Positions 1 through 32,550 of a stretch of 32,782 nt of DNA are shown piece by piece; position 1 is the first letter of the stretch, and every line of letters begins with the position of its first letter. Made by a program: the position numbers and the translations under genes. Source of the DNA: a virus; the IMG/VR virus record IMGVR_UViG_3300038954_000215, positions 1-32,782 of that record; one strand, 5' to 3'. The notes under the pieces are model-generated. The model was not told the DNA's origin. It did no database searches and worked only from the letters and a program-made list of their open reading frames with translations.

Positions 1-1093
1 ACGAGTAGACGATCCGATTGACACGCCCGGGCTCCTGCGGCCAGCCGCGCCCGTACCCGCTGGCGTCCAGCGTGCTATCCCACGCCCAGCCCAGCGTACC
101 CCCCGGTATGCACGTCGCACCATGCTCGGCCGTCTGGTAGCAGCGTGTCCCGCCGCTGTGTGTGTAGGTCGCGTCGGCGTCGGCGAGCTCGGTGTCGGCG
201 GAGTAGGCGTCGGAGGGATCTTGGTAGAGCGTGCCGCACCGTGCCGCGTGCTGCGCCTGTGTAATCGCAGCGCCGCAGTCGATAGCCAGCCGGTAGAGCA
301 TGACATTGCTGTCTGTGGCACTATGCCCGACGTACAGATCCATACCAGTCGCAGTCACACTGCCAAGGGCTGATGCGTCCCCCGTCCCATCTGCTGCTCC
401 GTCCAAATACCACGCCACCCCGTCGGTGATAGTGGTATCGACGGAGACGCTACGACAGTGTAGAGCCCCGTCCTCCGCGGTGCTAGCGTAGATCGTCGCG
501 TCGCTGGTACCATCCGACAGACCCACGCCCATCTTGTCAGTAGATGCGGGAATCAGCAGCTTGGTGTAGTGCAGCGTGGCGCCGCCAGTGTGCTCGTACA
601 CCAGCGCGTCTGTCGTACCATCGTACAGGTACCGGTAGATCACAGTGATCGAGATCTTGTCACCTGTGCAATACTCGGCGGGCGCCGTAAAATAGTGGCC
701 CCCGTCCACCCACACACCCGTTTCGTCCCACGCCACATCTCCGGTGGCGTCCTCTGTGGGCACGTACGCTGCGACCCCCTGACGCGGCGATCCCTGTGGG
801 CCCAAATCCCACGCCGTCGCATCGCCCGTGTCTGACATAGTACCGCTGGATTCCTGCATCAGGTAGCAGTGCTCAGCGTTACGGCCTAGCGTGCACCACT
901 CCGACCGCGCCGGCAGCGCGCCCATGTCGCGCGTGGCCAGCAGATGCAGCAGCAGTCCACTGACCCCAACTGGAGGATTTTGCTGTTCCGGCCCGCCGAC
1001 CATGACAGCGATCCCGATAGCAGCCGCCGCAGCCATCGCCGCGGAGCCACCCAAAATCGCATGACGTCTCGCACGACTCCTACGCCCCGGCAT
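1..1093 (-). CDS. Putative LamG/ConA-like tail or surface protein (C-terminus beyond window)
   Basis: The reading frame stays open from an ATG at 1093 to the left edge (at least 364 codons). The start overlaps the TAG stop of the preceding gene by 14 nt. Residues 1-8 are Arg-rich and are followed by an Ala/Gly/Ile hydrophobic stretch to about residue 32, resembling a signal peptide or membrane anchor. From about residue 75 the protein is rich in Thr, Asp, Gly and Tyr. The segments VAWYLDGAADGTGD and MDLYVGHSATDSNVMLYRLA look like the strands of a laminin-G/concanavalin-type fold, common in phage receptor-binding or carbohydrate-binding proteins. It follows three other unknown genes after the baseplate block, where fibre genes usually sit. 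The fold is inferred by eye. The receptor role is an inference from position. Confidence 0.6.
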   Translation of the reverse strand, partial: MPGRRSRARRHAILGGSAAMAAAAAIGIAVMVGGPEQQNPPVGVSGLLLHLLATRDMGALPARSEWCTLGRNAEHCYLMQESSGTMSDTGDATAWDLGPQGSPRQGVAAYVPTEDATGDVAWDETGVWVDGGHYFTAPAEYCTGDKISITVIYRYLYDGTTDALVYEHTGGATLHYTKLLIPASTDKMGVGLSDGTSDATIYASTAEDGALHCRSVSVDTTITDGVAWYLDGAADGTGDASALGSVTATGMDLYVGHSATDSNVMLYRLAIDCGAAITQAQHAARCGTLYQDPSDAYSADTELADADATYTHSGGTRCYQTAEHGATCIPGGTLGWAWDSTLDASGYGRGWPQEPGRVNRIVYS

Positions 1094-2681: not shown

Positions 2682-3314
2682 CTATGTATCCCAGCATCCC
2701 TGGTCCCAACCACGTCCATCCGTGTCAAAGGCGAAGAGCTTTGCTCTTCCAACCGTCCACGTGTCGCCGCTGGGCTGCAGGCGCTTTGCCGTGTCCCACG
2801 CCTCGGTGTGATCAAAAGATGCCGTTCCGTCTGTGTCGTAGATGTGCAGATTCGTCGCGTTGGCCGTATACTGATTTGCCACGTCCGGACTGTAGGATGC
2901 CACTGTCGCCGCGCTCGGCGAGTGCACCCGCACGTCAGCAGGATCGAGCCCCATCGCCGGGCCCATGATCGAGCGCAGCTTTTCCAGCGTCAGGGTGCCA
3001 AAAGATCGTGCCTTAACCATCACACGATCCTGTCTCTCGTCGACAGTACCGCTGGAGCTCAGGCCATACGACCGCTCCCAATCAGGCAAAAAAAGATCAT
3101 CATCATCGAGCCACGGCCACACACGCTCGCCGATCCACTCCAGCCCTTTGCGACACCATGATAGTGCCAGGCCCATGACATCGTGATCTTTTCGCGCCTC
3201 CGCGTCGTCCGTCCACACACCAGGCGGAAAAAATCGACGCACCATGCCCTGATAGACAGTCTCAAAATCGCGCCACCCTGTAGGCCAAGATGGCAGCCAG
3301 CTCGGATCGCTCAT
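2682..3314 (-). CDS. Mu gp48/YmfQ-like tail protein (DUF2313)
   Basis: This 210-residue protein belongs by sequence and position to the YmfQ/DUF2313 family (Mu gp48), a small baseplate protein between gpJ and the fibres. The typical family pattern is visible: an early YQGMVRRFFPPGVW segment, a central W-rich helical part (CRKGLEWIGERVWPWLDDDD), LPDWERSYGL, and a helix with RQDRVMVKARSFG. The start was placed at the ATG at 3314 because it overlaps the stop of the gpJ-like gene as ATGA. A frame extending 54 nt further upstream would add an unlikely Arg/Gly-rich tail. The C-terminal 80 residues (beta, Asp/Thr rich) are less conserved and may contact the next tail protein. Confidence 0.85.
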   Translation of the reverse strand: MSDPSWLPSWPTGWRDFETVYQGMVRRFFPPGVWTDDAEARKDHDVMGLALSWCRKGLEWIGERVWPWLDDDDLFLPDWERSYGLSSSGTVDERQDRVMVKARSFGTLTLEKLRSIMGPAMGLDPADVRVHSPSAATVASYSPDVANQYTANATNLHIYDTDGTASFDHTEAWDTAKRLQPSGDTWTVGRAKLFAFDTDGRGWDQGCWDT

Positions 3315-5911: not shown

Positions 5912-7194
5912 GTCACTCTGCTCTTGATCCACTCGTCCCACTCGTCATCTGTCACATCGTCGTGATCCAAATGCAGCCAAATCTTGGCTGGTATCAGCGA
6001 CAGCACCGTGCGTGTGCCAGCGTCTACGGATTTCACGAACCGCCGCTCGACGATGTAGTGCTGTCCAGAGATGTCATTCCATTCGTCTGTGACGTTGACA
6101 CATGCATTCGGGGCCCACAGCAGACCGTCGCGCTCGTGGCCTGCGAGCTCCACCTCGTAGCGGTACGACCTACACGCAATCTCCTCGACCGTCGTACGCG
6201 CAAGCCGGCGCAGCAGTTTGTCGTTGTGACATCCCCGTGGCACACGTAGCGTCTGCGGCTTGTGCACACGGGCCTCCAGACTCCCATCGCTTTTCGTGAG
6301 CCAAAACGCCGGCGATGGATCGCGCACTTCGATACTGCGATTGTTGCTCCGGCCTTTGTGACTGCGCTTTTTTCGTCCCTGAGCTATCACTGTGTAGCTG
6401 GCGTAGCGGTCCCCGGTAGCAGGCCGCCAGTCTGCGGCCAGCACATTGCCACCCTTGGGACTGTAGACCAGATCGTCGTACTCCACACGGTCGTATGATG
6501 GGCGGCCGATGAACAGCTCGCCCTGCGCTGTCACGTATGCAATGCACGCTACCTGCCGCGCTACCTCGCGGATTTTTTCCCACCTGCTACTACCGGGCTC
6601 CACGCGCATCTGCCGCAGCTCGTCGACGTCTACCCCGCGGTAGTACGGCGATTTCTTCCCGGCCTTTTGTTGCGAGCCTTTGACGCGCACGCGCTTTGTC
6701 AGCCCCTCGCTCGTAGTGATCTGTCGATACCTCGAGCGCTGCTTAGCCGCCATCACATAGTGTGCAGGCGCATCGTCTGTCACCACCTCCGAGATGTAGT
6801 CCGGTCGCCACGGCTCGCTGGCATAATCGGCGAGTTTTTTCAGGGTCCACCCGCTCACACTTTTGCCCTCCGAAAATCCGACGTCTATCAGCCAGCGTCC
6901 CATGTCTCGGCCGGTCAGATCGAGATACGATCCTCCTACTGCATGACCACTCTCTCGGTCGTCGGTGACTCCCGTAAACTGCATGGCGTCATTGCACATG
7001 ATGCGCACGCGCTGCTCGCCGGAAAGAAAGATCTTGCGGATGTCAGCTGTGGGAGTAGGCTGCAGTTTGAACGTGCCCGCCTCACCCCACAGATTTTGGA
7101 TCACTTCGTACTGCTGAAACTTATCGACCGTGTGCCACACTGATGCGTCGTCTCTGTCCTCGACGTCTATCCACAAAAGATCCGCCATCACCAT
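5905..7194 (-). CDS. Baseplate hub protein (Mu gp44/gpP, late control D-like)
   Basis: This 429-residue protein resembles the gp44/gpD hub family, which forms the ring under the tail tube and carries the spike. The N-terminus (KFQQYEVIQNLWGEAGTFKL... GEQRVRIMCNDAMQFTGVTD) and the segment GSYLDLTGRDMGRWLIDVGF are typical. They are followed by SVSGWTLKKLADYASEPW, a GKSPYYRG.. region and, near residue 195, the RWEKIREVARQVACIAYVTA helix that recurs in the family. The start at ATG 7194 overlaps the upstream TGA as TGATG. A GTG at 7197 and an ATG at 7188 are alternatives. Gene order LysM protein, hub, spike, gp46 is Mu-like. Confidence 0.85.
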   Translation of the reverse strand: MVMADLLWIDVEDRDDASVWHTVDKFQQYEVIQNLWGEAGTFKLQPTPTADIRKIFLSGEQRVRIMCNDAMQFTGVTDDRESGHAVGGSYLDLTGRDMGRWLIDVGFSEGKSVSGWTLKKLADYASEPWRPDYISEVVTDDAPAHYVMAAKQRSRYRQITTSEGLTKRVRVKGSQQKAGKKSPYYRGVDVDELRQMRVEPGSSRWEKIREVARQVACIAYVTAQGELFIGRPSYDRVEYDDLVYSPKGGNVLAADWRPATGDRYASYTVIAQGRKKRSHKGRSNNRSIEVRDPSPAFWLTKSDGSLEARVHKPQTLRVPRGCHNDKLLRRLARTTVEEIACRSYRYEVELAGHERDGLLWAPNACVNVTDEWNDISGQHYIVERRFVKSVDAGTRTVLSLIPAKIWLHLDHDDVTDDEWDEWIKSRVTW

Positions 7195-7649
7195 CACGAC
7201 ACCCCCGCGTATGGCAGCGTCAGGACAGTGCCCGGCTCGATCGCAAGCGGGTCGATGATCCCATTTCGAGTCGTAATCTCTTCCGCCTTTTCCGTGTCTC
7301 CGTAGTAGTCAAGACACACAGAAAAAATGTCACTCCAGTTGATGATCTGCACCTCAAAAGATGCGGGGATTTTCGACAGCAGTGTGTCAACGAGCTGCGT
7401 TGCCACTCGTACCATCCGGTACGCACTGGACGTCACCACCTCGGCATTTTCGCGGTACTCTGTCATATCGTCGATCGTCTCGATCAGTGCAGTGGACGCG
7501 GCGCGAAACGATGACATCGTACGGCTCACATCGTGCGGCTCTGCCACACCATTGCGATAGTCGGTGACAGTCTCGTCGAGATCCTGATACGCCTCCGCCC
7601 AGGCGTCGTAGTCCGTCAGCACCGCTGTGTCGTCGTCAAAGATTCCCAT
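7194..7649 (-). CDS. LysM-domain tail protein (gpX-like, or C-terminal part of a split gp43)
   Basis: This 151-residue protein has a helical acidic N-terminal part (about residues 1-90, many Asp, Glu and Thr). It ends in a LysM-like fold at residues about 98-148: INWSDIFSVCLDYYGDTEKA, then EEITTRNGIIDPLAIEPGTV and LTLP. LysM domains in tail protein X and in Mu gp43-type proteins sit near the baseplate hub. Here the domain is encoded alone, directly after a small gene with the gp43 N-terminal domain. The pair therefore looks like one ancestral gp43 divided in two. The start and stop overlap both neighbours as TGATG, so translation is probably coupled. The domain call is by pattern. Confidence 0.75.
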   Translation of the reverse strand: MGIFDDDTAVLTDYDAWAEAYQDLDETVTDYRNGVAEPHDVSRTMSSFRAASTALIETIDDMTEYRENAEVVTSSAYRMVRVATQLVDTLLSKIPASFEVQIINWSDIFSVCLDYYGDTEKAEEITTRNGIIDPLAIEPGTVLTLPYAGVS

Positions 7650-8095
7650 CAGTCGTCATACACCAGCTCGTCGGCGTCGCTATAGATCGAGGCGAGCTCC
7701 TGCTGCTGTGCCGCAGGGCTTTTGCTCGCCTTCGGTGTCGCAAGAGCTGCCGTTTTGTGCTCTGTGAATGTGATCGAAAATGTGACCACGCCTGGCCTGC
7801 GCGCCTCTACGCTATCACTGTCGATGCTGGCTCGCGCCTGCCAACTGCCAAAAATCGGATGAGTGAAAAGTCGTGGCTTGCCACCATGCACGGCTTTGTA
7901 GAGATCGATGTAGCTGTCGTAGTCCATCCGCGCGCTGATCGTGTCACGTCGCGACGGTGCGCCGGTGTCCTCTGTATCACTGCCAGTCCTCCCAAAAGAC
8001 TGGTGCTCGATCACGCGTCGCGGGGCGCGACCGCTAACACTTTCGGCCCAAAAGCTGATACCAGCGTAGCTGGCTTTGACCGCAGTACGTGGCAT
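7649..8095 (-). CDS. DNA circulation protein N-terminal domain (Mu gp43-like)
   Basis: This 148-residue protein matches the DNA_circ_N domain found at the N-terminus of Mu gp43 (protein N). The matching pieces are YAGISFWAESVSGRAPRRVI EHQSFGRTGSDTEDTG, a RRDTISARM strand, YIDLYKAVHGGKPRLFTHPI and the closing VVTFSITFTEH. In Mu-like phages this domain is normally fused to a long C-terminal region of several hundred residues. Here the protein ends after the domain plus about 35 residues. The ATG follows the tape-measure stop with no gap. Despite its name, the protein is probably a tail/baseplate component. Confidence 0.85.
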   Translation of the reverse strand: MPRTAVKASYAGISFWAESVSGRAPRRVIEHQSFGRTGSDTEDTGAPSRRDTISARMDYDSYIDLYKAVHGGKPRLFTHPIFGSWQARASIDSDSVEARRPGVVTFSITFTEHKTAALATPKASKSPAAQQQELASIYSDADELVYDD

Positions 8096-22213: not shown

Positions 22214-22609
22214 TCAGCCCCCGCGTCCTGGGTCCACCACTGTCACACTGATCTCGCTGCCAACGCCGTGTGCCTTGTCTCTGTGCGCCAAGGCCTCGAT
22301 CCGGAGTCGCATCCATGTAGCAAGCAGCCGACTCCGTGACACCGCAGTGTCCACCTCGCGGCAGATGCGCACCATCTCCGCGTCTACGAAATCCAGGCAC
22401 CCATCCCAATCCTGCGCTACGGGGCAATCTGCTAGATCCTCCTTAAATTTTCGGTACTTTTCCTTCCTAGCACTGGCCCCTTTTCTCGCGTTTTCGCGAT
22501 GACGCTGACGACCACTCTCAGACCCATGCAGCCAGCAGTACCACTGCCCCGCCTTAGCACTCTTGCCACACTGCTTGCCCGTCTTTGTGGTCGCCTGACA
22601 CCGTGCCAT
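22214..22609 (-). CDS. terS: Terminase small subunit with zinc-finger-like N-terminus
   Basis: This protein (131 residues from ATG 22609) begins with a compact Cys/His pattern, RCQATTKTGKQCGKSAKAGQ WYCWLHGSES. It is the putative zinc-binding, DNA-recognising motif common at the start of small terminases of this type. After it comes a basic linker and helices with VAQDWDGCLDFVDAEMVRIC and SRLLATWMRLRIEALAHRDK. It would bind the pac or cos site and hand DNA to TerL. No strong ribosome binding site precedes ATG 22609. A GTG at 22696 just after GAGGAG TGA could start a 160-residue form whose codons 3-6 span a G10 run (22681-22690). Confidence 0.8.
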   Translation of the reverse strand: MARCQATTKTGKQCGKSAKAGQWYCWLHGSESGRQRHRENARKGASARKEKYRKFKEDLADCPVAQDWDGCLDFVDAEMVRICREVDTAVSRSRLLATWMRLRIEALAHRDKAHGVGSEISVTVVDPGRGG

Positions 22610-22680
22610 GGTGCTATTCTGGATTCGCTTTTTCTCGCCTGTCAAATCTCGCCGGGTACTACCACTCCCCCGCCTCGTAT

Positions 22681-22690
22681 CCCCCCCCCC
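22681..22690 (-). repeat. G10 homopolymer (minus strand) ahead of terS
   Basis: Ten C on the plus strand, so G10 on the coding strand, lies just after the stop of the gene ending at 22697 and before the ATG of terS. If terS begins at GTG 22696, the run is in codons 3-6 and a length change would shift its frame. It could also be a sequencing or assembly error site. Confidence 0.7.
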
Positions 22691-22696
22691 TACCAC

Positions 22697-23160: not shown

Positions 23161-23718
23161 TTAGGCATATCGGCGTATCTCCCACAAGACTCGTGCCACA
23201 CCACCATTGCCAATGGGGTCGCGTTTGTCTCGCAGTTTTACACTAGATTCAGCCCATGATTTTCTCGGCGGCAGTTCTTTCACCCTCTTCCAGCCTGCCG
23301 CTCGTAAACTAGCCCCTGTCTCGTCGGCTTGCGTGTAGGTGATGCAGCGCATGTAACCCATAGCCTTGGCCGCCCTCCAAATCGCCCCGTATAGCTGGCT
23401 GTTGGCGTTTGGTGTGCCGTCGGTGCAAGTCCGATTCACTTCCAGCGTCAGACCATCGTCATAATGCCGTGCAACGGGCCTGCCAGCTGTCGCGACTCCC
23501 ACTAAGTCATCACCAACCTTCAATCCTACCCCGAATTGCCACCCTGTTGGTGGCTTGTTGTGCCTGTGGTGGAGGCCTATAAACTCCTTAGCCTCTCTTA
23601 GCGTGATAGGATGCAGTCTCGGCGTTGCCTCCCTCTTTTCTTTTTTCGCAGTTGTCAATCTGTCCCTGAAATCGCCTGCATACCGCCCAGTCGATCTCTG
23701 CATCTCTTTGTCACTCAT
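23161..23718 (-). CDS. XF1762/GNAT-like phage protein
   Basis: This 185-residue protein resembles the XF1762 family, small phage proteins with an acetyltransferase-like fold. The typical pieces are LHPITLREAKEFIGLHHRHN KPPTGWQFGVGL, DDLVGVATAGRPVARHYDDG LTLEVNRTCTDGTPN, SQLYGAIWRAAKAMGYMRCI TYTQADETGASLRAAGWKRV and a closing WEIRRY. Such genes are widespread in phages. Some have been linked to chemical modification of DNA bases or proteins, but its substrate is unknown. The ATG at 23718 was chosen because GGGAGG stands 6 nt before it, and it overlaps the upstream gene by 8 nt. Confidence 0.75.
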   Translation of the reverse strand: MSDKEMQRSTGRYAGDFRDRLTTAKKEKREATPRLHPITLREAKEFIGLHHRHNKPPTGWQFGVGLKVGDDLVGVATAGRPVARHYDDGLTLEVNRTCTDGTPNANSQLYGAIWRAAKAMGYMRCITYTQADETGASLRAAGWKRVKELPPRKSWAESSVKLRDKRDPIGNGGVARVLWEIRRYA

Positions 23719-23944
23719 CGTCATCCTCCCGTTGCTGTTGGCGCACAGTGCTCCCGCACACCTCCTCTGACAGCAAATCAGCCACAAATGCGAATAATGC
23801 GACCTTGGCGTAAATGTCCATATCATCATACGCCAGCGCGAAAGCTTCGTGCGCCCCTTTGATATCCGCCTCAAACCCGGCCAGAGCGGAATACGCTCCT
23901 TGGTCCTCGTGATTCTTGATCCATCGATCAATCACTCGACTCAT
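23711..23944 (-). CDS. Hypothetical small protein
   Basis: This 77-residue acidic protein has a strong GAAAGGAGG site before its ATG. It contains a helical middle (FEADIKGAHEAFALAYDDMD IYAKVALFAFVADLL) with some hydrophobic side, and an Asp/Glu tail. No family is recognised. It overlaps the GNAT-like gene by 8 nt and is overlapped at its start by a 33-residue frame. Confidence 0.6.
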   Translation of the reverse strand: MSRVIDRWIKNHEDQGAYSALAGFEADIKGAHEAFALAYDDMDIYAKVALFAFVADLLSEEVCGSTVRQQQREDDDE

Positions 23945-24096: not shown

Positions 24097-25167
24097 CTAC
24101 CCGCCCCTCTCCGCGCCATCTCGCGCCGCCTCACTCCCCTCTCCGTGCTCCTGCTCCACGATCCGCATGACCGCCGCCCTAATCGCCTGCTCGCCTGCCA
24201 CCTCTGGTACCATCGCACGCACCGGCGCCGTCTCCGCCTCTGCCCGCGCCTGGATGTCGGCCTGGGTGTCACTATCCAGCCGTCGCCACACCGCCGCTAG
24301 ACGCCGTCTGCGCTCCGCCTGCTCGGCACGTCGACGCTCTCGGTCGGCCTGCTCTCGCGCCTCGATCTCTGCGACAGCTGCGCCCGGTCTCTTGCGCGCC
24401 GCCCGCTGGGCCTCGGCCGCCTGTGCCGTATCGCGATCGTGCTGCAGATTGGCACAGATGCGGTGGCAGTACGACGCCGGATTCCCCCGGAATCCGTCCC
24501 GCCCTTTGACCAGCGTCTTTTGGATCGCCTCGTCGACGATGTCGGCATCATACTCTCGCAGGATCCCGAGCTCGTCCTGCAGCAGGATCTCCGACTCGTC
24601 GGTGTGTGTCATCGACAGGTACTCGGCGAGCATGTGCGGGCGGCGATACCGTGACATGTCTTCCGCAGGTATGACGGGACCACCACCCCCTGTTCCGCAA
24701 GAGTTGTTATCAGGATCAGGATGCTGCTGGCTGGCCAGTGCAGTGTCCACATCTCCACACCTGGGGGATCCTGATCTTATACCTACAGATACACGGTCAC
24801 CAGACCGGATCTTACTCTGCAGATCTTGTGACTGCGCGCGTGCGCGCACGGTCTGGGCAGCGATTGGCCTTTTGGTGGTCTTTTGGTGGTCTTTTGGTGG
24901 TCTTTTAGTGGTCACTTGCTGGCCAGACCGTGCGGGCGCGCGCGTGTACGCGCGCACGGTCTGGGCAGCGATTGGCCATTTGGTGGGCTCTTGGTGGCCA
25001 CCCTCACCCTCTGCGGATTCCAGCTCGTCGCACAGTCTGGACAGCGCGTACCCCACGACCTGACTGCGTGTCACTGCATGCAAGCCGAGGTGGCTACACA
25101 GCAGAGACTTCGCCGCCTCGGCCCGTGCTGCCACCTCGTCCTGCAGGGTGATCCGCCAGCGCGCCAC
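24097..25167 (-). CDS. Putative replication initiator carrying internal iterons
   Basis: This 356-residue protein starts at GTG 25167, overlapping the TAG of the upstream gene, with GGGGGAGGTG before it. Residues 1-50 (RWRITLQDEVAARAEAAKSL LCSHLGLHAVTRSQ) could be a small helical DNA-binding domain. Residues 60-150 are low-complexity and encode repeats (WPIAAQTVRA and RPIAAQTVRA). The region 165-250 (YLSMTHTDESEILLQDELGI LREYDADIVDEAIQKTLVKG) with FRGNPASYCHRICANL resembles helper-loader-binding parts of initiators. A coiled coil follows. Phages of the lambda type keep their origin inside the initiator gene, and the 24842-24977 repeats suggest the same here. No match to a named family was made. 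Confidence 0.6.
   Translation of the reverse strand: MARWRITLQDEVAARAEAAKSLLCSHLGLHAVTRSQVVGYALSRLCDELESAEGEGGHQEPTKWPIAAQTVRAYTRAPARSGQQVTTKRPPKDHQKTTKRPIAAQTVRARAQSQDLQSKIRSGDRVSVGIRSGSPRCGDVDTALASQQHPDPDNNSCGTGGGGPVIPAEDMSRYRRPHMLAEYLSMTHTDESEILLQDELGILREYDADIVDEAIQKTLVKGRDGFRGNPASYCHRICANLQHDRDTAQAAEAQRAARKRPGAAVAEIEAREQADRERRRAEQAERRRRLAAVWRRLDSDTQADIQARAEAETAPVRAMVPEVAGEQAIRAAVMRIVEQEHGEGSEAARDGAERGG
24842..24977. repeat. Iteron array, candidate replication origin
   Basis: A 28-bp direct repeat occurs at 24842-24869 and 24950-24977; its core reads CGCGCACGGTCTGGGC. A 12-bp part (CGCACGGTCTGG) is also present between them in inverted orientation (24922-24933, ccagaccgtgcg). Directly after the first copy lie four tandem 11-bp repeats (CTTTTGGTGGT three times, then CTTTTAGTGGT) at 24869-24912. 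Because 11 is not a multiple of three, the array was not built by repeating codons, so selection on DNA rather than on protein is likely. Confidence 0.6.
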
Positions 25168-25715
25168 TATCCCACCTCCCCCACATACGCCAGCGCTCGC
25201 TGGAGCTGCCACTCGCGCTCGGCTTCCCAGGCGGCGTACCTGGCGGCGGCCCTGGCGGCGGCCGAGGCGGCGTCCCAGGCGGCGGCCCAGGCGGCGGCCC
25301 AGGCGGCGGCCCAGGCGGCTTCCCAGGCGGCGGCCCAGGCGGCGTCCCAGACGGCGTCCCAGGCGACGGTCCTGGCGGCGGCAAGCTCTTCGTCCGTCGC
25401 CTCTCCGCGAGCATATGCCCGTGCTACGCGTACGGCGGCCCATGACCGCTCATCGGGCTCGCGGCCTGCCGCCCGCTCGCGCACTAGCGCCCGCTCGGCG
25501 CAATCGCAGGCCAGCAGACGGCGCTGCCTATCATCCATCCAGACGGTGGTGATCGCCCACAGTCGATCCACCGCCGGAATATCCAGCCGGGCGCACTGCG
25601 CTGCGGTGATCCCATCACCGACCAGCTCGGCGACCACTTCCCAGGTGTAGTCATCGCAGGGCCCCCGCGGCACCGCCGCCCTAATGTCAGATACGGTCTT
25701 GATGCTGTCAGCCAT
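25167..25715 (-). CDS. Ala/Trp-repeat protein, Imm5-like (paralogue A)
   Basis: This 182-residue protein is strongly similar to the protein of 26950-27543. The N-terminal 110 residues (DDYTWEVVAELVGDGITAAQ, then WMDDRQRRLLACDCAERALV) are conserved. The motif AAVRVARAYARGEATDEELA resembles the Imm5-type putative immunity domain. The C-terminal 60 residues are a four-residue repeat (AAAW, DAAW, EAAW) encoded by 12-bp DNA repeats, likely one long helix with a Trp stripe. The ATG overlaps the upstream gene by 8 nt with GAGGGGGTGG inside that gene's end. Function unknown; the immunity name is only a family label. Confidence 0.7.
   Translation of the reverse strand: MADSIKTVSDIRAAVPRGPCDDYTWEVVAELVGDGITAAQCARLDIPAVDRLWAITTVWMDDRQRRLLACDCAERALVRERAAGREPDERSWAAVRVARAYARGEATDEELAAARTVAWDAVWDAAWAAAWEAAWAAAWAAAWAAAWDAASAAARAAARYAAWEAEREWQLQRALAYVGEVG
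25250..25400 (-). repeat. 12-bp coding repeats (Ala-Ala-Ala-Trp) in paralogue A
   Basis: On the plus strand GCGGCCCAGGCG-type 12-bp units recur about ten times with point changes. They keep the reading frame and encode xAAW units, unlike the 11-bp iterons 350 bp away. Replication slippage probably sets the copy number. Confidence 0.7.
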
Positions 25716-26383: not shown

Positions 26384-26953
26384 TCATCCCTCCTTGTTTT
26401 TAGTCACGCACCTCGCGGCCACAAGCACCGGGTGTGTCTCCCAGCACGCGACGGCCGCTGCCAGCGCGTCTCCCGCGTCCTCGCGCCCTTTTTTTGTCGA
26501 CGGCCACATGTCATCGGCGATGTCATAGCGCGCCATCAGCGCGTCTCTGACAGCCTGCTTCGATGCGCTGTTTTTGCCACACAAGTGCTTTTTGATTTTT
26601 TGGGGCGATAGCTGATAGATTGGGATATCGTAGTATCCCCACGCTACTATCACACCCCAAGCCATCCCCACCTTGGCTGACGCCGCCGCATTGCGCGGCC
26701 ACGACTGTGCCTCGGCGCAGATCGCCTTGATCCGCGGTACGCCCCGGTAGCACATCTGCGTAGACAGCCACCCAGACATCCCCTGCGCCAAATCACGCGC
26801 ACGCCGAACATTATCGTCAGCCTTGTAGTGGTGTTTTCGATCTTTCGCCGGTTTTGTGCGGATCGTAGTCATCGCCCACACGCTAGTCGTGTCCGGCAGA
26901 TACAGCGCTAGGCCCAGGTGTGCTAGGCCGGGGTCGACCCCTAGGATCATCAT
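26384..26953 (-). CDS. RuvC-like Holliday junction resolvase
   Basis: This 189-residue protein has the RuvC pattern of catalytic acids: Asp7 in ILGVDPG, Glu81 in AICAEAQ, and Asp159 and Asp162 in EDAGDALAAA. RuvC-type enzymes cut four-way junctions. In phages they clear branched DNA before packaging or during recombination. The ATG at 26953 overlaps the upstream TGA as ATGA, behind a GGGGGGAGGTGA site. Longer frames to 27271 would run through the Ala repeat of the neighbour. It sits between the two Ala/Trp paralogues, near the RecE/RecT pair. Confidence 0.85.
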   Translation of the reverse strand: MMILGVDPGLAHLGLALYLPDTTSVWAMTTIRTKPAKDRKHHYKADDNVRRARDLAQGMSGWLSTQMCYRGVPRIKAICAEAQSWPRNAAASAKVGMAWGVIVAWGYYDIPIYQLSPQKIKKHLCGKNSASKQAVRDALMARYDIADDMWPSTKKGREDAGDALAAAVACWETHPVLVAARCVTKNKEG

Positions 26954-27543
26954 GATGTCACCTCCCCCCGCACGTACGCCAACGCGCGCTCGATCTGCCA
27001 CTCCCGCTCGGCGTCGATGGCAGCGGCCCCGGCGTCCCAGGCCGCGTCCCAGGCGGCGTACCTGGCGGCGGCCCTGGCGGCTTCCCAGGCGGCTTCCCCG
27101 GCGGCGTACCTGGCGGCGTCTCTGGCGGCCAAGGCGGCCAAGGCGGCCAAGGCGGCCAAGGCGGCGTCCCTGGCGGCCCAGGCGGCCAAGGCGGCGGCAC
27201 CGGCTGCCTCCCGATCCTCGTCCGTCGCCTCGCCGCGAGCGTATGCCCGGGAGACGCGTACCGCCTCCCATGACCGCTCGTCGGGCTCGCGGCCTGCGGC
27301 GCGCTCACGCCCCAACGCCCGCTCGGCGCAATCGGCCGCAAATAGCCTACCCTGCCCGTCGTCCATCCACACGTAGATGATCGCCCACAGGCGATCCTCC
27401 GCCGGGATGTCTAGCTGGGCGCACTGCTCGGCCGTGAGCCCATCACCGACCAGGTCGGCGACCACTTCCCAGGTGTAGTCATCGCAGGGCCCCCGCGGCC
27501 CTGCGGCCATGACGTCGTCCACGTCCTTGATACTGTCAGCCAT
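26950..27543 (-). CDS. Ala-repeat protein, Imm5-like (paralogue B)
   Basis: This 197-residue protein is the second copy of the Ala/Trp-repeat family. The first 110 residues differ from paralogue A at only about one in five positions (DDYTWEVVADLVGDGLTAEQ, GREPDERSWEAVRVSRAYAR). The repeat region differs: ALA units encoded by 9-bp repeats near 27121-27200 and AAR/AAW units elsewhere. Both copies start inside the end of an upstream gene (EGVAHG) and end in a Shine-Dalgarno-bearing tail for the next gene. The duplication therefore carried its own translation signals. Function unknown. Confidence 0.7.
   Translation of the reverse strand: MADSIKDVDDVMAAGPRGPCDDYTWEVVADLVGDGLTAEQCAQLDIPAEDRLWAIIYVWMDDGQGRLFAADCAERALGRERAAGREPDERSWEAVRVSRAYARGEATDEDREAAGAAALAAWAARDAALAALAALAALAARDAARYAAGEAAWEAARAAARYAAWDAAWDAGAAAIDAEREWQIERALAYVRGEVTS
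27050..27210 (-). repeat. 9- and 12-bp coding repeats in paralogue B
   Basis: On the plus strand five consecutive GGCGGCCAA-type 9-bp units (around 27124-27170) encode Ala-Leu-Ala. Neighbouring 12- to 15-bp units encode AARY and AAWD groups. All keep the reading frame. Copy number differs from paralogue A, which fits slippage after duplication. Confidence 0.65.
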
Positions 27544-27898
27544 GAGCCACCCCCTCTCGTCGACACCAGTCCGTGTATGTCATCCACGGACTGTCAGCGG
27601 CGACACGCTGCCAGAGCTCGATCTCGTAGCGCACCCCCGCCGACTCGTGCCATCCGTCGATGTCTAGCACTACTAGACTGTCAGTATTGCGCAGCAGCGA
27701 GGCTGCTGCGTGGCGCATCCAGTAGTCCCAATCCGGCGGGTGGTCCCCGGAGCAGTCGACGGCGTGTCCATAGACTACCGGTGCGTATACCAGATAGCCG
27801 CGAGCTGCGATCGTGTGTGCAGCCTGTGCGGCCAGTGTGGCGCGCTCCTCGCGCACCTCTGGGCGCGGGTGTGTGTACGGTGATGATAGATAGATCAA
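27536..27898 (-). CDS. DUF1937 protein, nucleoside deoxyribosyltransferase-like
   Basis: This 120-residue protein matches DUF1937: YLSSPYTHPRPEVREERATL AAQAAHTIAARGYLVYAPVV, an H near residue 45 (YGHAVD), DWDYWMRHAAASLLRNTDSL VVLDIDGWHESAGVRYEIEL. This is a Rossmann-like fold related to nucleoside 2-deoxyribosyltransferases, with the Glu of the SAGVRYEIE segment in the place of the usual active-site acid. It may act on nucleotides, but activity is unproven. The start is TTG at 27898 with GGGAGGCGATT before it. It overlaps the paralogue B start by 8 nt. Confidence 0.75.
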   Translation of the reverse strand: MIYLSSPYTHPRPEVREERATLAAQAAHTIAARGYLVYAPVVYGHAVDCSGDHPPDWDYWMRHAAASLLRNTDSLVVLDIDGWHESAGVRYEIELWQRVAADSPWMTYTDWCRREGVAHG

Positions 27899-31851: not shown

Positions 31852-32060
31852 CGTGTCCCCCTATTAAATGATCGCGCGCGCGGGCGTCGGTGTCGTCGCT
31901 GCCAGGCGATCAGATCGCGCAGCAGGTAGCGTACAGGTCCCCCGTCGTGGGGCTGTACGTAGGCAGGCCCGCGGCCCTGGCGGCGCCACCGCTTCAGGGT
32001 GGACGCTGCGTAGCCCAGATGGATCGCGGCTTGTCTGGTGGTCAGTGACGTGGTAGTCAT
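31848..32060 (-). CDS. Excisionase-like HTH DNA-binding protein
   Basis: This 70-residue protein has a MerR/AlpA-type helix-turn-helix: SLTTRQAAIHLGYAASTLKR WRRQGRGPAYVQPHDGGPVR, then YLLRDLIAWQRRHRR. The pattern TxxQAAxxLGxxxxTLxRWxxxGxGPxxxxxxGxxxRY is typical of the HTH_17 excisionase group. It could act as excisionase or as a transcription regulator of the divergent region. A GAGG ribosome binding site ahead of the ATG lies in the 3' arm of a hairpin (32063-32087). It is the first well-supported gene of the leftward operon. Confidence 0.8.
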   Translation of the reverse strand: MTTTSLTTRQAAIHLGYAASTLKRWRRQGRGPAYVQPHDGGPVRYLLRDLIAWQRRHRRPRARSFNRGTR

Positions 32061-32370: not shown

Positions 32371-32550
32371 ATGACGGACACGACGACACAACAAGCTGAC
32401 AAAAATGAGGCGCTGGTGAGCTGGGCCCGCGATGCTGGGTATCAGTCTCTGACCGATGTCCCAAACCTCAGGATCGACGAGCTCAAAATCGAGGAGGTTC
32501 TTGAGGATGAAATAGCCCATCGCGTCAGACGCTTGGCATCTATCTGGTAG
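32371..32550 (+). CDS. Hypothetical small protein, first rightward gene
   Basis: This 59-residue protein (TDTTTQQADKNEALVSWARD AGYQSLTDVPNLRIDELKIE, then EVLEDEIAHRVRRLASIW) is acidic with two helices. It has no Shine-Dalgarno sequence. The promoter at 32333-32360 would give an almost leaderless mRNA, as known for lambda cI. It does not resemble a repressor, and no DNA-binding motif is seen. In-frame upstream starts (32356, inside the -10 box, and 32236) are less likely. It is followed by a structured spacer and another rightward gene. Confidence 0.6.
   Translation: MTDTTTQQADKNEALVSWARDAGYQSLTDVPNLRIDELKIEEVLEDEIAHRVRRLASIW

Follow-up and report, generated by a model that had tools for sequence, protein, structure and literature searches.

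The window analysed here is the whole of the IMG/VR record, 32,782 bases in length, which is probably a fragment of a virus genome. Nearly all genes in the window are read leftward and, from right to left, their products include an excisionase/MerR-like protein, a DNA methyltransferase, RecE-like and RecT-like proteins, two Ala-rich paralogues, a RuvC-like resolvase, the product of the gene which carries the repeats described below (the array gene), a Mom-like protein, terminase, portal, capsid, tail sheath and baseplate proteins. The virus is a poorly known contractile-tailed phage, and the proteins of the window showed about 24-36% identity to those of the best phage records. Neither an Rfam family nor a tRNA was found in the window. 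The phage may be temperate, judging by a possible repressor gene near 32.37 kb on the + strand; the least stable segment of the window contains a promoter-like TTGACT...TATGCT which is directed rightward into this possible gene, and the segment is likely the point where transcription diverges. The two Ala-rich paralogues are 74% identical, belong to PHROG 18326, a family without assigned function, and flank the RuvC-like gene and one uncharacterised gene; 12-bp DNA repeats in both paralogue genes code for AWAA-type repeats. Other identifiable products were a Mom-like DNA modification protein (PHROG 1384), encoded between the array gene and terminase, and a nucleoside 2-deoxyribosyltransferase-like protein (PHROG 355).

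The array gene belongs to an operon read leftward, in which RecE, RecT and RuvC precede it and terminase follows. A ribosome-binding site (GGAGGT) lies 6 nt before its GTG start, which overlaps the stop codon of the preceding gene (TAGTG). No family match for the 356-aa protein was found in Pfam, PHROGs, NCBIfam or the PDB, the protein showed no similarity to the PHROG O-like replication initiation proteins, and O-like and initiator profiles gave no match anywhere in the window. Searches of viral and genome collections with the whole protein and with its C-terminal part returned no homologue, and there was none among phage and plasmid records. The exact two-iteron DNA pattern was absent from the viral contigs searched. 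Searches with neighbouring genes (RecT, terminase, the Ala-rich pair and RecE) reached distant loci only, none of which had the array-gene protein. Two similarly placed cyanophage genes were considered and set aside, as they encode different proteins and are without comparable repeats. A single-sequence structure model of the protein, of low overall confidence, contained two N-terminal helices, a low-confidence stretch at residues 52-197 which is predicted to be disordered, and a confident helical C-terminus; most of the codons of the array fall within the predicted disordered segment. Nothing informative came out of PDB fold searches with models of the full-length protein and of its N-terminus.

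Table 1. Positions of the repeats, of the features beside them and of other elements of the window, with the intragenic repeats of five further contigs.
Feature	Position	Strand	Description
Array gene	24097-25167	-	356-aa ORF, GTG start at 25167; candidate replication initiator, without family match
A4	25029-25046	+	18-bp element CGCACAGTCTGGACAGCG, 2 mismatches; codons 41-47
B6	24989-24999	+	Degenerate 11-bp element, 2 mismatches
B5	24978-24988	+	Degenerate 11-bp element, 2 mismatches
Second perfect 28-bp repeat	24950-24977	+	Includes A3 (24953-24970)
23-bp alternating purine/pyrimidine tract	24936-24958		Longest of the window
A2	24917-24934	-	Inverted 18-bp element, 2 mismatches
B1-B4	24870-24913	+	Four tandem 11-bp iterons TTTTGGTGGTC, 1 mismatch in the last
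First perfect 28-bp repeat	24842-24869	+	Includes A1 (24845-24862)
18-bp alternating purine/pyrimidine tract	24833-24850		Second longest of the window
Low-stability 60-bp segment	24767-24826		Among the least stable 0.34% of 60-bp windows; candidate unwinding region
Lowest third-position G+C	24676-24795	-	Forty-codon window
Putative small-terminase ORF	22214-22696		
Mom-like gene	23161-23720	-	PHROG 1384
Ala-rich paralogue	25167-25715	-	PHROG 18326
Ala-rich paralogue	26950-27543	-	PHROG 18326
Nucleoside 2-deoxyribosyltransferase-like gene	27536-27898	-	PHROG 355
Least stable segment	32260-32442		Likely divergence point of transcription
Possible repressor gene	start near 32374	+	
L156, intragenic repeats	2743-2826		
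L161, intragenic repeats	2899-2958		
L014, intragenic repeats	7554-7827		
L027, intragenic repeats	296-353		
L158, intragenic repeats	6667-6797		

The repeat cluster lies in or beside codons 41-108 of the 356-codon gene and is built from two words (Table 1). The 18-bp word A is present in four copies, three direct and one inverted, and the 11-bp word B in six copies within the cluster, four near-perfect and two degenerate, with B5-B6 trailing the second 28-bp repeat as B1-B4 trail the first. The two perfect 28-bp direct repeats had been described in an earlier, sequence-only reading of this DNA and were found exactly as claimed, with a spacing of 108. The four tandem 11-mers of that reading are also present, the last with one change, and begin at 24870, the earlier start of 24869 being one base early. 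The inverted copy, given there as 12 bp, was confirmed but is in fact 18 bp long with two mismatches, and it forms part of 35-nt arms which are 83% complementary. The repeats claimed were thus in place, while A4, B5-B6 and the second of the alternating purine/pyrimidine tracts had been missed. These two tracts (23 and 18 bp) are the longest of the window and both overlap A elements.

The repeats are genuine and greatly exceed what chance would give. When the whole window was searched for the 18-bp core CGCACGGTCTGGGCAGCG with up to 3 mismatches, the core was found in exactly four places, all within 24845-25046 (202 bp) and none elsewhere; 0.09 copies were expected in the whole window and no shuffle yielded four. 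The longest direct repeat at a spacing of up to 150 was 10-13 nt in 20 Markov simulations compared to 28 and 27 nt observed. Folded as single strands, the array region did better than every one of 200 shuffles for both strands (z -5.2 and -3.4), which is to be expected with A1 and A2 being inverted copies.

The B copies occupy all three codon phases, while A1 and A3 share one phase and A4 is in another. A1 and A3, spaced 108 bp apart, are translated into the same peptide, and this pair alone could therefore be a peptide repeat, which A2, being inverted, and A4, being in another phase, could not. Given the mixed reading frames and the inverted A copy, neither a peptide repeat nor slippage alone can explain the cluster. 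The gene contains repeated binding-site-like words which codon repetition does not explain, a characteristic of a lambda-type intragenic origin.

Directly downstream of the array in the direction of the gene is a stretch of about 120 bp with the lowest third-position G+C (0.375) among 8,318 windows of forty codons taken across 40 genes (mean 0.71, sd 0.09). The codon-position G+C of the array gene is phage-typical at both ends and collapses in the middle only. An AT-rich, easily unwound tract adjoins the repeats, moderately so, with 52.5% G+C compared to 61% for the window. Lambdoid origins are located midway along O, next to an AT-rich tract (PMC7466680), and we put lambda O/ori through the same analysis as the array gene. 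The annotated iterons occupied codons 117-145 of the 299 codons of O and were in mixed phases; third-position G+C within O reached its lowest value directly downstream of them, with order and polarity as in the window. On the two stability measures lambda ranked at 12% and 4%, milder than the window, and these measures are therefore supportive, not diagnostic.

Tandem repeats within one ORF with a period not divisible by three were screened for in 1,686 ORFs of at least 150 aa from 168 sequences, which comprised the window together with loci reached through terminase, RecE or phage records. Besides the window, seven contigs were returned. Five of the seven flagged ORFs (L156, L158, L161, L014 and L027) match PHROG families for replication initiation, O-like proteins or DnaD-like helicase loaders and the other two (L126 and L077) are low-complexity; replication genes are over-represented in this screen because the choice of loci relied in part on a recombination gene. 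Five initiators in seven would be obtained by chance with a probability of about 2e-4, assuming at most one initiator ORF per contig, a base rate which is an upper bound and not a measured rate. L156 and L161 are related, and counting them once gave about 1e-3. In L156, L161 and L027 the lowest third-position G+C was found just downstream of the array; L158 had a weaker dip after its array and L014 was A+T-rich throughout. Lambda and the initiator genes from related loci thus share this layout. No sequence similarity between the window protein and these five loci was found.

The sequence-only reading had also named an inflection of cumulative GC skew at the array as a check, and there was none. 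GC skew falls steadily across the array, with a minimum at 31,861, where the genes appear to switch direction and transcription to diverge, and skew at four-fold sites did not change sign at the array. Since gene direction dominates skew, this test is confounded and was counted as uninformative rather than refuting.

Taking together the anatomy of the array, the lambda control and the screen, we consider that the array is probably a lambda-type intragenic replication origin which is bound by the product of its own gene. The protein encoded by complement(24097-25167) would act as the initiator, binding the A elements, the B elements or both within its own gene, and the bound protein would wrap or bend the array DNA. 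It would then open the adjacent low-stability stretch (about 24680-24830), where replication would start, and the helical C-terminal half may recruit a helicase loader or helicase. The likeness to lambda O which had been drawn earlier holds for the architecture, the lambda control and five of the seven screen cases, but does not extend to the protein, as no known initiator family matches the gene. Similarly, the designation of the gene as a putative replication gene had no support from homology and draws on architecture, position and analogy.

It is unlikely, in our estimation, that the array is instead a DNA-binding site, for the same or another protein, which serves in regulation or partition as an operator or a centromere comparable to ParR/parC. 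In plasmid R1 the sites bound by ParR are 11-bp direct repeats (PMC9426499), and ribbon-helix-helix adaptors occur together with iterons in some phage-plasmids (PMC6669507). The N-terminal sequence of the window protein also appeared ribbon-helix-helix-like by eye. However, ribbon-helix-helix profiles (RHH_1/Arc) gave no match, and the isolated N-terminus was modelled as two helices with no strand, although a single-chain model could miss a ribbon-helix-helix strand which forms only in the dimer. In addition, parC is usually upstream of parM, whereas the array lies within coding sequence. No partition gene was present among the window genes scanned, and a promoter-like site was not found near the array. 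The ParMRC arrangement of repeats upstream of parM with a ParR-like adaptor was not seen in this contig, itself probably a fragment.

We also find it quite improbable that the repeats have no role at the DNA level and arose by slippage and duplication in a fast-evolving disordered linker. The B copies are nearly identical, as if from recent slippage, the region is predicted to be disordered and may tolerate many peptides, and the two Ala-rich genes of the window also hold long codon-length repeats. Slippage, however, produces neither an inverted copy such as A2 nor a separate copy in another frame such as A4, and general linker slippage would not favour initiator genes, yet such genes made up five of the seven screen cases.

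Packaging sites commonly consist of repeats close to terminase genes, but it is very improbable that the array is a pac/cosB-like site for the terminase small subunit: although it is located ~2.1 kb upstream of a putative small-terminase ORF, itself before the large subunit, such sites are usually in or beside the small-terminase gene and here the Mom-like gene and others lie between, packaging needs no adjacent low-stability region, and no terminase was among the flagged ORFs of related loci.

For most uncultured phages the sites where replication starts are not known, and the rapid evolution of initiators puts them beyond homology searches. If mixed-frame linker repeats with an easily melted stretch just downstream prove to be a reliable mark, both initiator and origin could be read from sequence alone, and the gene in the window would encode an initiator which no family model finds. 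We propose tentatively, as a possibility somewhat short of an even balance, that the array gene founds an unrecognised family of phage initiators with a composite intragenic origin, and that intragenic repeats with a non-3n period may serve as a sequence-only flag of initiators in uncharacterised phages, even those lacking detectable homology. The proposed composite origin would consist of the two word classes, the inverted copy and the alternating purine/pyrimidine tracts.

Compared with known systems, the 11-bp direct repeats of the window resemble those of R1 parC, being about one helical turn apart (PMC9426499), but unlike R1 parC, which lies upstream of parM, the array is intragenic, and partition genes or a ribbon-helix-helix match were not found. 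The Lin1244/DnaD-like and HTH-type initiators returned by the screen (L156, L161, L014, L027 and L158) likewise have non-3n tandem repeats inside the gene. The period is 11 bp in four of the five, and in most of them the repeats come after the N-terminal domain and A-rich DNA lies downstream; unlike the window protein these five initiators have recognisable N-terminal domains, and most have one word class. In contrast to lambda ori, the window has two word classes (the 18-bp A and the 11-bp B), one copy in inverted orientation and tracts of alternating purines and pyrimidines, and unlike lambda O its protein is without similarity to O or to any initiator family. As in lambda ori, several mixed-phase iterons are found mid-gene in an early operon, with low third-position G+C directly downstream and the same polarity. 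The layout, in which the origin would lie inside the gene for the protein that starts replication, is shared with phage lambda and several other phages.
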